From an uncultured Roseiflexaceae bacterium (GTDB taxonomy: Bacteria > Chloroflexota > Chloroflexia > Chloroflexales > Roseiflexaceae), in assembly GCA_903932805.1 (NCBI GenBank), contig CAIZHO010000254.1, positions 1-11,392 on the forward strand: 11,392 nucleotides of DNA, written 5' to 3'. Within the stretch, counting starts at the first letter, position 1, and each line of letters begins with the position of its first letter. The translations under genes were made by a program, and so were the position numbers. Under the pieces are notes generated by a model. That model was not told the DNA's origin. It made no database searches and saw nothing but the letters and a program-made list of their open reading frames with translations. Shown piece after piece: positions 4,796 through 8,104 of the stretch.

Positions 4796-5890
4796 ATGAC
4801 CACTGCACGTCCGGTCTACCCCTTCAGTGCCATCGTCAGTCAAGACAGACTGAAACGGGCGCTCATTTTGAATGCAATCAATGCCCGCATCGGCGGCGTG
4901 TTGATTCGCGGTGAGAAAGGTACGGCCAAATCGACGGCGGTACGTGGCCTGGCGCGGATTTTGCCGCACATCCGGGTCGTTGCCGACTGTCCCTATGGGT
5001 GTCCGCCCGATCAACCATCTGCGATGTGTCCTTCGTGCCGCGCGCGCTACGAGACCAACCCCGACTTGCCCGTCGCCGAACGCGCTACGCGTCTGGTCGA
5101 TTTGCCGGTGGCTGCCTCCGAAGACCGCGTCGTCGGTTCACTCGACCTCGAACACGCTTTGACCGAGGGGCATCGTCGCTACGAGCCCGGCTTGTTGGCC
5201 CAGGCCAACCGCGGGTTGTTGTACGTCGACGAAATCAACCTCCTCGACGACCATTTGGTCGATATCCTCCTCGATGCCGCAGCAATGGGCATCAACACCG
5301 TCGAGCGTGAGGGCATCAGCGTGACCCACCCGGCACGCTTCATCCTCGTCGGCACGATGAACCCCGAAGAAGGCGAACTGCGTCCGCAGTTGCTCGACCG
5401 CTTCGGTCTGGTCGTCGAAATCGGCGGTATCCATGACGTCGAAGGCCGTGTCGAAGTCATATCGCGGCGTATGCGCTACGATGGCGACCCGGACGGCTTC
5501 TCCAAAGAATGGTTGCCCACCGAACAAGAATTGGCCGAGCGTATTGTGCGTGCCCGTGCCTTATTGCCGCTGGTGCAAATCACCCGCCGCGACATGGCAG
5601 CAGTCGCTACCCTTTCGATGGAGCTGGGCGTCGACGGTCACCGTGCCGACCTGGCCATCCTCGAGACGGCCCGTACCCACACCGCCTGGGCCGGTCGCAC
5701 CACATTGGCAGCCGAAGACATCCGTGTCGCTGCCGAGTTGGCGCTGCCGCACCGCATGCGCCGCCAGCCCTTCACCGAGGTCAAACTCGACGAGGCGCGG
5801 GTCGGTGACATCCTCGATCGCGTCCAATCTGCCGAAGGTGATGAGTCAGCCCAAGCCAATGCGGATGGCGTAAAAAAAAAGACCCTCTGA
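4796..5890 (+). CDS. chelatase AAA+ ATPase subunit, ChlI/BchI-like (normal-frame product)
   Basis: AAA+ ATPase of the Mg/Co chelatase small-subunit type, 364 aa. In the family it forms hexameric rings with the medium (D) subunit and powers metal insertion into a porphyrin or corrin ring by the large subunit. Motifs: Walker [10 protein letters not shown] (39-47), Walker [12 protein letters not shown] (141-151), sensor-1/arginine region [20 protein letters not shown] (186-205), sensor-2 GHRADLAI (281-288). All look intact. Four cysteines (65, 69, 78, 81) in CPYGC...CPSC form a likely metal-binding insertion, as I recall from archaeal and some bacterial ChlI-like proteins. Start: the frame extends back to ATG 4685, but similarity to the family begins at the [10 protein letters not shown] segment just after ATG 4796, which has GGAAAGAG upstream. 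The frame stops at 5888, just past an A9 run; a -1 shift there would extend it into the downstream VWA segment. Confidence 0.93.
5872..5881 (+). promoter_or_regulatory. likely programmed -1 frameshift site (A9 run, heptamer A_AAA_AAG)
   Basis: The ChlI-like frame reads GTA AAA AAA AAG ACC CTC TGA. Positions 5875-5881 are therefore A_AAA_AAG in the right register for a tandem -1 slip, the same heptamer as the E. coli dnaX frameshift site. After the slip, reading continues GAC CCT CTG AAC into the ChlD-like frame. The -1 frame has stops at 5839 and 5842, so the shift must occur between 5845 and the zero-frame stop at 5888; the A9 run is the obvious place. A weak SD-like GGATGG lies at 5863-5868. 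RNA polymerase slippage on the A9 run is an alternative mechanism with the same result. Confidence 0.75.
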
Positions 5891-5923
5891 ACACGAGTGA
5901 CGACGGCGAGTCGACCGAGGGTC
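5881..5923 (+). promoter_or_regulatory. stem-loop directly after the slip site
   Basis: GACCCTC (5881-5887) pairs perfectly with GAGGGTC (5917-5923). The 29-nt loop holds a smaller 4-bp hairpin, CGAC (5901-5904) with GTCG (5910-5913). The outer stem starts at the last base of the slip heptamer and includes the bases up to the zero-frame TGA. It is a candidate stimulator, although the usual spacer of several bases between slip site and structure is absent. Confidence 0.5.
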
Positions 5924-6873
5924 AAGAAGAAAGCGAAGGCGGCGCTGGGGCAAACGCCAGCGCTGGGGCAACGGACCAGGGGTCCAATGCAAACAACGAA
6001 CAGGGTGGTGGCGAAAAGGCGTTCAAAGCAGGCGAGATGTTCAAGCCCAAACGGCTCGATGGACAACGCGATCGCCAAGAACGCAAATCACCCGGGCGCC
6101 GCAGCAAAACACGCACCACGCGCAAGCAAGGGCGATATGTGAGTAGCCGCCCGGCCCACCGTGTGACTGACCTGGCATTCGATGCAACGCTCCGCTATGC
6201 AGCACATCTGCAACCGAAGCGCCGCGCCGATGCTCTGGCCGAAGGCAAACCCGTGCGGGCAGTGATGCTCAGACGGAGCGATCTGCGCCAGAAAGTCCGC
6301 GTCCGCAAGACGCGCAACGCTGTCTGTTTTGTCGTCGATGCAAGTTGGTCGATGGCAGCTGATGAGCGCATGCGCGCCACCAAAAACGCCGTTTTGTCGC
6401 TGTTGCGCGATGCGTATCAGCGCCGTGATCGAGTCGGGTTGGTGTCGTTCCAGCGTGATTATGCAACGCTGTTGTTGCCGTTGACCAGTAGTGTCGAGCT
6501 GGCGCAAAAGATGTTGCAGACCATGCCCACCGGCGGTCGTACGCCGCTGTCACGCGGGTTGATGATGGGCTACGAGGTCCTCAAACGGGCCCGCCGGCAG
6601 GACGAAGAAGTGGTCCCGCTGATGGTCTTGTTGACGGACGGTCAAGCCAATGTGGCCATGACCGATTTGCCTCCGCAATCCGAGAGCTACTCGATAGCAG
6701 ACTTCATCGCCAGCGAAGAGATTCGCTCGGTGGTGATTGATACCGAACACCCGGTGTTCGAACGTGGCTTGGCCAAGCAGTTGGCCCACCACTTAAAAGG
6801 AAACTACTACCGGCTGGATGACCTGCGCGAGGGTGGCCTCGTCGATTTGGTCCGGTCGGAACTGAACCGCTAG
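5881..6873 (+). CDS. chelatase medium-subunit C-terminal part, ChlD/BchD-like linker plus VWA domain (made as a -1 frameshift fusion from 4796)
   Basis: Read in the -1 frame after the A9 run, this adds 330 residues to the upstream ATPase, giving a 692-aa protein spanning 4796-6873, about the length of ChlD/BchD. It starts with a linker rich in Gly, Asn, Ala and acidic residues (about 5890-6015), then a basic stretch ([18 protein letters not shown]), then a von Willebrand type A domain with a complete MIDAS: DASWS (Asp515, Ser517, Ser519 in fusion numbering), Thr583 in GGRTPLSRG and Asp615 in LLTDGQAN. In the family this domain binds Mg2+ and docks the AAA+ ring to the large chelatase subunit. 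No ATG, GTG or TTG occurs in this frame from 5845 to 6037. The ATG at 6037 has no convincing ribosome site and would delete the linker, so independent translation is unlikely. Cobaltochelatase and Mg-chelatase roles are both possible. Confidence 0.85.
5942..5963 (+). other. GC-rich hairpin in the linker coding region
   Basis: GCGCTGG (5942-5948) pairs with CCAGCGC (5957-5963) over an 8-nt loop. It is followed by a small hairpin, GGACC (5973-5977) with GGTCC (5981-5985). The segment also holds a 12-bp direct repeat (5942-5953 and 5960-5971) that encodes a repeated Ala-Gly-Ala linker. It may add to mRNA structure after the slip site, or merely reflect linker repeats. Confidence 0.35.
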
Positions 6874-6919: not shown

Positions 6920-8104
6920 ATGACCGAAGAGACCAAAAACCCAACCCCAGAGAGCGCCGAAACCCCAGTGGCCAGCGCCGAAACCCCAGTGGCCAGCGCC
7001 GAAACCCCAGTGGTCAGCGCCGCGACGGCTGACGTGAGCACGGATGTCGCCGAAAAGCGCTCCAAAAAAGGCATGCAAGAGCTGGTCGCTGGCCAAATTT
7101 TGCAGGGCAAAGTCAAGTCCGTCACCCCGTACGGTGCCTTCATCAGCATCGGTGTCGGCCGTGACGGCTTGGTCCATATCTCTGAACTGGCTGATGCCCG
7201 GGTCGAGAAGGTCGAAGACGTGGTTGTTGTGGGCCAGGATGTCACCGTCAAGGTGCTCGAAGTCGACCAGTCCAAGAACCGCATCAGCTTGACCATGCGC
7301 ACCCAGGAGCGCCCCGCTCGCACCGAGCGCCGCCGCCGCCCCGAAGTGAACAGCGATGCCATCAACGCCCTGCATGCAGGTGATTCGATCGAAGGGATCG
7401 TCAAGAGCACGACCGCCATTGGTGCATTCGTCGATATCGGCGTCGGCAAAGACGGCCTGGTCCACATCTCTGAACTCGCCGACACCCGTGTCGCCAAGGT
7501 CGAAGACGCCGTGACCATCGGCCAGTCATACACCTTCAAAATCATCGAAATCGACCCTGCCCAGGGTCGCATCAGCCTGAGCCTGCGCCGTGCCAGCACC
7601 GACCCCAAGTTGGATGCCATCAGCCAGGGCCAAATTTTGCAGGGCAAGGTCAGCGGGCATTCCCCGTTCGGCGTCTTTGTCAACATCGGCGTCGGTCGCG
7701 ACGGGCTGGTACACAGCAGCGAGATCCCCGGCGGCAAAAAGCCCGAGATCGGCACCGAGTTGCAGGTACGTGTGCTCAACGTCGATACGGCCAACAACCG
7801 CATCAGCCTGAGCGCCTACCTGGAAGACCGCCCAGCCAGCGAGCGCCCCGACCGTGCTGCCCGTCAGCCACGTGAGGACCGTCCCGCCGGTGAGCGCCGC
7901 CCGAAGCGCGACGACAACCGCAAACCCGAGACCTACACTTCGGCCTCGAGCGCTGAAGCAGGCTTCGAGGGGGATGCAACCCTGGCCGACTTGGCTGCCC
8001 GCTTCGGCGCCGAGACGCGCGAGAAGTCCAACCGCACCGGTGGCACCCGTGGTGGCACTGCGCTGCCCAGCGATGTCATCAAGCGCACACTCAACGTCGA
8101 ATAA
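6920..8104 (+). CDS. three-S1-domain RNA-binding protein (ribosomal protein S1-like)
   Basis: 394-aa RNA-binding protein with three S1 (OB-fold) domains at about 54-127, 151-223 and 235-300. Each has the GxF/V...GLVH.SE core and an RISL(S/T) end. Proteins of this kind act as bS1 homologs that help 30S subunits bind mRNA, or as general mRNA-binding factors. It is shorter than the six-domain E. coli S1 but within the range of the shorter S1 proteins of other phyla. The N-terminus (1-50) is low-complexity with AETPVAS repeats. Residues 303-335 are rich in Arg, Asp and Pro, likely disordered and RNA-binding, followed by a conserved-looking short tail. ATG 6920 has a strong AGGAGGA (6904-6910). 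It starts 46 bp after the ChlD-like frame without a clear terminator or promoter between, so read-through from the chelatase gene is possible. A 13-bp hairpin follows its stop. Confidence 0.93.
   Translation: MTEETKNPTPESAETPVASAETPVASAETPVVSAATADVSTDVAEKRSKKGMQELVAGQILQGKVKSVTPYGAFISIGVGRDGLVHISELADARVEKVEDVVVVGQDVTVKVLEVDQSKNRISLTMRTQERPARTERRRRPEVNSDAINALHAGDSIEGIVKSTTAIGAFVDIGVGKDGLVHISELADTRVAKVEDAVTIGQSYTFKIIEIDPAQGRISLSLRRASTDPKLDAISQGQILQGKVSGHSPFGVFVNIGVGRDGLVHSSEIPGGKKPEIGTELQVRVLNVDTANNRISLSAYLEDRPASERPDRAARQPREDRPAGERRPKRDDNRKPETYTSASSAEAGFEGDATLADLAARFGAETREKSNRTGGTRGGTALPSDVIKRTLNVE
6953..7015 (+). repeat. three tandem 21-bp repeats (AETPVAS heptapeptide)
   Basis: Copies at 6953-6973, 6974-6994 and 6995-7015. 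The first two are identical and the third differs by one base (the A-to-V change in ETPVVS). They keep the reading frame and encode a flexible N-terminal segment of the S1 protein. Copy number is likely to vary between strains. Confidence 0.9.
7091..7110 (+). repeat. 20-bp direct repeat shared with 7628-7647 (S1 domains 1 and 3)
   Basis: The same 20 bases occur at 7091-7110 and 7628-7647, 537 bp (179 codons) apart. Both encode GQILQGK at the start of S1 domains 1 and 3. Exact identity at synonymous positions, including TTT-TTG-type choices uncommon here, suggests recent duplication or gene conversion between the domains. Confidence 0.8.

Follow-up and report, generated by a model that had tools for sequence, protein, structure and literature searches.

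We analyzed a stretch of 11,392 bases (the window) from G000, a draft genome of an uncultured Roseiflexaceae bacterium (635 contigs, 94% complete), and found that its chlD gene of the TIGR02442 type is very probably a frameshifted chlD (fs-chlD) gene, which would give a short AAA+ product and, through −1 slippage on a run of nine A (A9), a long AAA+/VWA product. Comparison with relatives inclines us to think that the gene encodes two products throughout the order Chloroflexales, with the default product flipped, and that it is the presence of both forms, and not a chelatase working with CobN, that is conserved. The pair may serve a CobN-independent machine with a genetic tie to an S1-domain RNA-binding protein.

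The first open reading frame (ORF1, forward strand, 4796–5890) encodes a ChlI-like AAA+ protein of 364 amino acids, the unshifted product. Read from the ATG at 4796, it ends with ...GGC GTA AAA AAA AAG ACC CTC TGA, the stop codon (5888–5890; TAA instead in G007 and G010) lying two codons past the AAG of the run. The A9 run (5872–5880) has an unchanged register across the 11 genus genomes and holds two in-register heptamers, A_AAA_AAA (5872–5878) and A_AAA_AAG (5875–5881). The −1 frame opens at 5845 (GTC) and runs to a TAG at 6871–6873; after slippage it would contribute 330 codons (5881–6873, forward strand), an acidic linker followed by a VWA domain, for a predicted fusion of 362 + 330 = 692 amino acids. 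Its earliest ATG, GTG or TTG, which in the window is also the only one from the slip site up to the VWA match, is the forward-strand ATG at 6037–6039, which is kept in 11/11 genus genomes and is without a fixed counterpart outside the genus. The initial annotation had described this layout correctly, namely an ORF1 stop at 5888 after A9, a −1 frame from 5845 to 6873 with no ATG, GTG or TTG before 6037, a 692-residue fusion and an in-register A_AAA_AAG (5875–5881); the second heptamer, A_AAA_AAA, was not mentioned there. No other A or T homopolymer in the 11,392 bases reaches a length of seven; 0.007 A9 runs would be expected (20% A, independent bases). The GTA before the A9 is a rare valine codon (13 of 258 Val codons across the nine gene segments counted in the window).

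Profile matches place the two halves of one protein on either side of the run. Against the NCBIfam profile TIGR02442, ORF1 matches positions 1–329 and the −1 frame positions 339–641 of 641, with separate scores of 505.2 and 286.1 bits and a whole-protein cut-off of 779.45; among the single-frame orthologs of the order, 27 exceed this cut-off, one of which does so only when the neighbours in its frame are included. Pfam assigns AAA_lid_2 and Mg_chelatase to ORF1, and VWA_2 and VWA to the −1 frame, where the VWA domain (VWA_2, 6325–6645, forward strand, residues 161–267 of P0001) carries the MIDAS motif DASWS. The nearest solved structure to ORF1 is the Mg-chelatase subunit ChlI (8osf, E 1.7e-102), and the VWA part matches the Mg-chelatase 60 kDa subunit (2x31, E 7.6e-17). 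ORF1 stays below the BchI cut-off (TIGR02030, 430.5 vs 466.95), as do both halves of the gene below that for BchD (TIGR02031, 252.2 and 196.2, each < 499.55).

A search with ORF1 of 40 genomes (the window's own and relatives) gave orthologs in most, and we read 30 loci including that of the window; the slip sites of G024, G036 and G039 are outside these 30. In 26 of the 30 loci, ORF1 stops soon after a run of A7–A10 and the −1 frame encodes the VWA domain; the other four are single-frame. Because 26 of the 30 share it, this arrangement is, at the level of sequence, far beyond chance, and the retention of the run and both frames in relatives supports the two-product chlD-type gene with a slip site that had been proposed from the window alone. 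The genus keeps GTA AAA AAA AAG in 11/11 genomes. The other ten −1 loci of the window's family have A9 (eight) or A10 (two), and five loci of family f3, among them that of Herpetosiphon giganteus (L043), have A7 in the register CTA/CCA AAA AAA GCN stop. In a wider survey of genome_contigs, which kept 80 loci from a larger total, at least 24 of the loci kept combine an A run ahead of the ORF1 stop with a VWA domain that is encoded in the −1 frame and lies no more than 220 bases from that stop. These 24 are all from Chloroflexota, two of them (L042 = G001, L043 = G025) overlap the 30 loci, and two further "frame −1" rows (L073, L116), being distant separate genes, are left out of the count.

The −1 frame also shows the imprint of selection. 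Changes between genus members fall mainly on its third positions, starting at the slip site: between L006 and L016, positions 1/2/3 differ 4/4/12 times in the first 25 −1 codons and 32/17/144 times in the VWA part. Selection looks looser in the first 25 codons, since half of the codons changed there (8/16) are nonsynonymous.

Both frames, the genus-invariant run, selection on the −1 frame and conservation over most of the order can thus be read from the sequences. Unshifted reading of ORF1 would end at 5888 and give the 364-residue, I-like AAA+ protein; a fraction of ribosomes, or of transcripts, would slip −1 on A9 into the acidic linker and VWA domain, and this slipped reading would give the 692-residue, D-like AAA+/VWA protein. 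That slippage occurs, and at some rate, we infer from this pattern; by analogy with ChlI/ChlD, the two proteins may form a motor pair.

Several observations weigh against this interpretation. The long product needs no slippage in 4 of the 30 loci, nor in the 35 of 70 order genomes read that are single-frame; a tRNA-Lys(CUU) in relatives (below) weakens a slip involving AAG; and a stimulatory fold is not apparent, 60-base windows after the slip site giving z of 0.6 and 1.3 against dinucleotide shuffles in the window and z ≤ −2 in either window in just 3 of 26 loci. A downstream hairpin was considered and rejected: the 7-bp inverted repeat GACCCTC (5881–5887)/GAGGGTC (5917–5923), which starts at the last slip-site base, is not unusually stable and has not been retained in G002, G003, G005, G008 and G009. 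As for the single-frame relatives, they keep the A run and mostly have near stops in the other frames, and therefore speak for two products, not against them.

We examined these relatives in 70 of the 82 Chloroflexales genomes (the 30 and 40 more), of which 33 are of the −1 type, 35 are single-frame with the run kept and two are unclassified. The initial annotation had reasoned that one-frame relatives without a slip site would speak against slippage; one-frame relatives do exist, but they retain the run. Arrangements sort largely by family: f4 (Chloroploca, Oscillochloris and kin) has 34 single-frame genes, three of the −1 type (G043, G068 and G073) and the unclassified G057; f3 (Herpetosiphon) has eight of the −1 type; and f1, the window's family, has 22 of the −1 type, one single-frame gene (G017) and the unclassified G080. 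G057 (L049/L261, G057:C128) is broken in frame 0; it reads GAA AAA AAA ATC ATC TGA, with the VWA domain in frame 0 after the stop, and matches neither of the two arrangements. G080 (L268, G080:C148, 1–1378; genus g4) has A10 against the A9 of its relatives, a difference of one base that would flip it to long-first, and its verdict is blocked by a contig end and a possible assembly error.

In the 35 single-frame genes, the run is A9 in 25, A10 in nine and A8 in one. A −1 stop follows within five codons in 35/35 and within two codons in 31/35; a +1 stop follows within six codons in 30/35 and within three codons in 24/35; and both near stops (−1 within two, +1 within three codons) are present in 21/35. 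In the linkers themselves, site included, a −1 stop comes within five codons at a background rate of 38%, which leaves the five-codon count with little weight on its own; the corresponding rates are 18% when the −1 stop must come within two codons, 9% for a +1 stop no more than three codons away and 3% for the two near stops together. The codon pair at the −1 stop varies (P, A, S, G, D, N or L, then D, E, N or S), and a TGA, TAA or TAG stays; half of the near +1 stops (15/30) arise from NTA GGN with V, L or I.

We further compared the first-listed gene of each of 14 genera with versions randomized over synonymous codons according to the gene's own usage. A run of A8 or longer is present in 14/14 genera (3.9 expected), a −1 stop within two codons in 11/14 (3.1 expected; g25, g18 and g8 lack it), a +1 stop within three codons in 11/14 (3.0 expected; g26, g27 and g18 lack it) and both stops in 9/14 (0.66 expected). 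The genera share ancestry, so p-values from this randomization are too small, and in genus g16, whose first-listed genome has both stops, five of the eight genomes are without the near +1 stop.

Outside the order, an A heptamer stands in register in only two of the 22 additional single-frame loci, those of an archaeon (L117) and a Chloroflexota bacterium (L121), with −1 stops four and two codons past it, respectively. The stretch read has none in the other 20, including L094 from Chloroflexota and L087, where an in-register T7 is followed at once by a −1 stop. The feature is thus lineage-bound and not general to fused chlD genes. On a tree of 69 sequences, the arrangement label needs at least four changes, two of them forced by well-supported branches; the tree was built with a quick method and has several long branches, and the direction of change is not inferable from it.

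The single-frame orthologs, 34 of them in one family, are apparently mirror-image two-product genes. For Roseiflexaceae and the family of Herpetosiphon, frame 0 would give the short AAA+ form, and slippage would be required for the long AAA+/VWA form; in most of f4 and in G017, the long form would be read in frame 0, and slippage at the same run would yield the short form, with stops apparently selected in the other frames. In the portions of the papers that our literature search covered, we found no description of slippage in fused (single-frame) chlD genes.

How the slippage would occur is less clear-cut. In the dnaX gene of Escherichia coli, the ribosome slips because the only tRNA-Lys pairs weakly with AAG, and the presence of two lysine tRNAs is perhaps relevant to the use of polymerase slippage by Thermus dnaX instead (PMC5009743, in the passages available). 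We found both tRNA-Lys, UUU and CUU, in G010 (50 Rfam matches checked; one, at a contig end, had no ARAGORN call). A DNA search for tRNA-Lys(CUU) in ten further genomes found it in nine, all but G000, and a second search that included the tRNA neighbourhood, in seven genus genomes, found it in G001, G005, G007 and G008. Within the genus, it is present in 8/11 genomes (G001, G002, G003, G005, G007, G008, G009 and G010); the neighbourhood search did not find it in G006, where L277 is a tRNA-Asn, and in G000 and G004 the match is cut off by a contig end. With this tRNA in the relatives, UUU is not the sole tRNA-Lys of the genus, and the dnaX-type slip on A_AAA_AAG favoured in the initial annotation becomes doubtful. 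It is no more likely than slippage on A_AAA_AAA (5872–5878) or RNA-polymerase slippage on A9.

Between these two, we lean towards ribosomal −1 slippage, mainly on A_AAA_AAA, and regard a contribution of RNA polymerase as a serious, somewhat less probable alternative. Polymerase slipping on A9, alone or together with the ribosome, would produce mRNAs with 8, 9, 10 or more A that are then translated normally, in the manner of Thermus dnaX, where mixed transcripts give a short and a long protein. The two lysine tRNAs that PMC5009743, as far as its text was available, connects with Thermus dnaX are present in G010, and tRNA-Lys(CUU) was found in most relatives searched. A9 is also the commonest run length in the order (21/33 −1 loci and 25/35 single-frame loci), no conserved stimulator was detected, and the closure of both the −1 and +1 frames near the run in 21/35 single-frame orthologs favours the polymerase, because +1 stops are better explained by slippage in two directions than by ribosomal −1 slippage. 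Against it, the Herpetosiphon family has only A7 (8/8 loci), which is short for polymerase slippage, and has it in exactly the register that ribosomes need for A_AAA_AAA, so that this family fits ribosomal slippage on that heptamer. Published work, in the parts consulted, likewise treats the family as ribosomal, with E. coli test cassettes showing shifting rates of 63% with 11 A, 40% with 9 and 10% with 7 (PMC3711429), and A_AAA_AAG motifs occur in insertion sequence (IS) elements of many species with both lysine tRNAs (PMC4066793, in the part seen).

The function of the two products is a separate question, and here a cobaltochelatase role with CobN is a tentative reading that we consider somewhat unlikely. 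It is suggested by the name of TIGR02442, "putative cobaltochelatase", and by the presence of CobN over the cut-off in 13 and of CbiC in 11 of the 40 genomes searched. In the window's genus, represented by 11 drafts that are 60–98% complete, neither CobN above the TIGR02257 cut-off (0/11) nor CbiC (0/11) was found; the drafts being incomplete, these zeros come with a caveat, and a recent loss of CobN from the genus is conceivable. The large subunit with a PF02514 match on contig C49 of G000, considered as a possible CobN, proved to be BchH (TIGR02025, 1270 vs a cut-off of 829; TIGR02257, 572 vs 822), and bchD lies on the same contig. A BchI paralog, ∼52% identical to ORF1, is full-length in 5/11 genus genomes and partial in a sixth, and the four such paralogs that we checked score 535–546 against the TIGR02030 cut-off of 467. 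The Mg-chelatase thus has its own D and H subunits here and its own I subunit in relatives, which also stands against a cobaltochelatase role. We considered a missing bchI in G000 as the reason for an I form at this locus and dropped it: contig C90 starts (base 2) ∼1.1 kb short of the place that bchI occupies in G010, so its absence is most simply a contig gap.

Eight of the 40 genomes gave no match to a CobN/BchH-type large subunit, and six of these eight have a full-length ORF1 match (four of the six at least 90% complete), which again argues against a partnership with CobN. The six are G030, G031, G036, G009, G004 and G039. The "function unknown" entry that the accessible text of PMC9227772 gives for orphan fs-chlD genes fits better than the cobaltochelatase role. 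The initial annotation had named the two products small and medium chelatase subunits and had pointed to separate chlI, cobN or chlH genes as informative. BchI was indeed found in relatives and BchH here, CobN was not found in the genus, and the assignment as chelatase subunits is doubtful with no CobN or CbiC in the 11 genus genomes, separate BchD and BchH in this one and BchI in relatives.

That the locus instead comprises two cistrons, the VWA protein being made from its own start, for instance the ATG at 6037, by coupling or reinitiation, is very improbable. The retention of this ATG throughout the genus speaks for it, and yet it leaves unexplained both the invariant run and the third-position excess between 5881 and 6036, and single-frame orthologs join both parts through the same kind of linker. 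Moreover, the −1 frame of 5/26 loci lacks any ATG, GTG or TTG before the VWA match begins; slippage or an unusual start would be needed there to translate the VWA part. An error of sequencing or assembly, or a decayed gene, can be dismissed almost entirely, even though the genome is a draft in 635 contigs and homopolymer runs are generally error-prone, since the same run and frames recur in other assemblies, including the single-contig genome G013 (5,801,598 bases), the isolate Herpetosiphon giganteus (L043) has the same frames with A7, and the third-position excess is present in both frames.

Directly downstream of the chlD gene lies a gene with three S1-domain matches (6920–8104, forward strand), which is kept in most Chloroflexales regions compared. 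It occurs in 19/21 of them, in 18 directly beside a called part of the chlD gene and on the same strand; it was not found in the regions of G024 and G026, and in G015 the chlD gene itself is not called. A weaker S1-domain match (35–39% identity) lies upstream, on the other strand, in seven loci from other Chloroflexota (L052, L053, L055, L058, L062, L068 and L077). Elsewhere in the window, two adjacent M20-type amidohydrolase genes (2–1306 and 1185–2363) cluster together by sequence (the Pfam check covered the second), and genus relatives have two to four nearby copies of such genes. A palindrome-like short repeat of ∼40–50 bases (L173, 52–106 and 1134–1205) has dozens of matches in genus contigs and looks like a small dispersed repeat.

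Apparent mirror-image versions of one gene occur naturally in genera with cultured members, which comprise Roseiflexus, Herpetosiphon and Chloroflexus-type bacteria. Should the two forms both be required, an ortholog that does not slip would be expected to fail, which turns a published guess into a testable prediction. Gene callers would annotate the f4 genes as normal one-frame genes and overlook the short product. That the gene persists in genomes in which CobN, and in some cases any large subunit, was not found bears directly on the role of ChlI and ChlD without a large subunit, a question raised in the available text of PMC9227772.

Among known systems, the closest are the published fs-chlD genes (Antonov 2013, PMC3711429; Kuznetsov, Milenkin and Antonov 2022, PMC9227772; both seen in part), and the initial annotation had stated correctly that chlD frameshifting had been published. 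In the sections available, the 2013 fs-chlD cluster includes Herpetosiphon, of the same order (PMC3711429), and the 2022 paper includes Anaerolineaceae and Brevefilum of the Chloroflexi, the latter without a large subunit and listed with unknown function (PMC9227772). The locus resembles these genes in its AAA+ frame, its A-rich slip site, its VWA domain in the −1 frame and the two products proposed from one gene. It differs in that the Roseiflexaceae genus has BchH, BchD and BchI, with no CobN or CbiC found, a combination that is not among stages 1–8 in the text of PMC9227772 as far as it was available.

The other comparisons are looser. DnaX is an AAA+ protein, and dnaX of Thermus and E. coli likewise uses an A run or A_AAA_AAG to make two proteins sharing the AAA+ part. 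The order's single-frame orthologs resemble it in having the long form in frame 0, whereas the window's gene has the short form in frame 0 and would reach the long one by slipping; unlike E. coli, relatives of the window's genome have two lysine tRNAs. BchI and BchD (ChlI and ChlD) of Mg-chelatase have the same AAA+ and VWA parts, but they are separate paralogs, with BchD in this genome and BchI in the genus, and ORF1 falls below the TIGR02030 cut-off. CobS and CobT of the aerobic cobaltochelatase correspond to the role proposed for fs-chlD products together with CobN (PMC9227772, in the text available), yet no CobN above the cut-off was found in the 11 genomes of the genus. Two-product slippage has therefore already been published for this gene family; what comparison of the orthologs would add to it is the mirror-image arrangement in f4, in which the long form is apparently the default and the short form the product of slippage.

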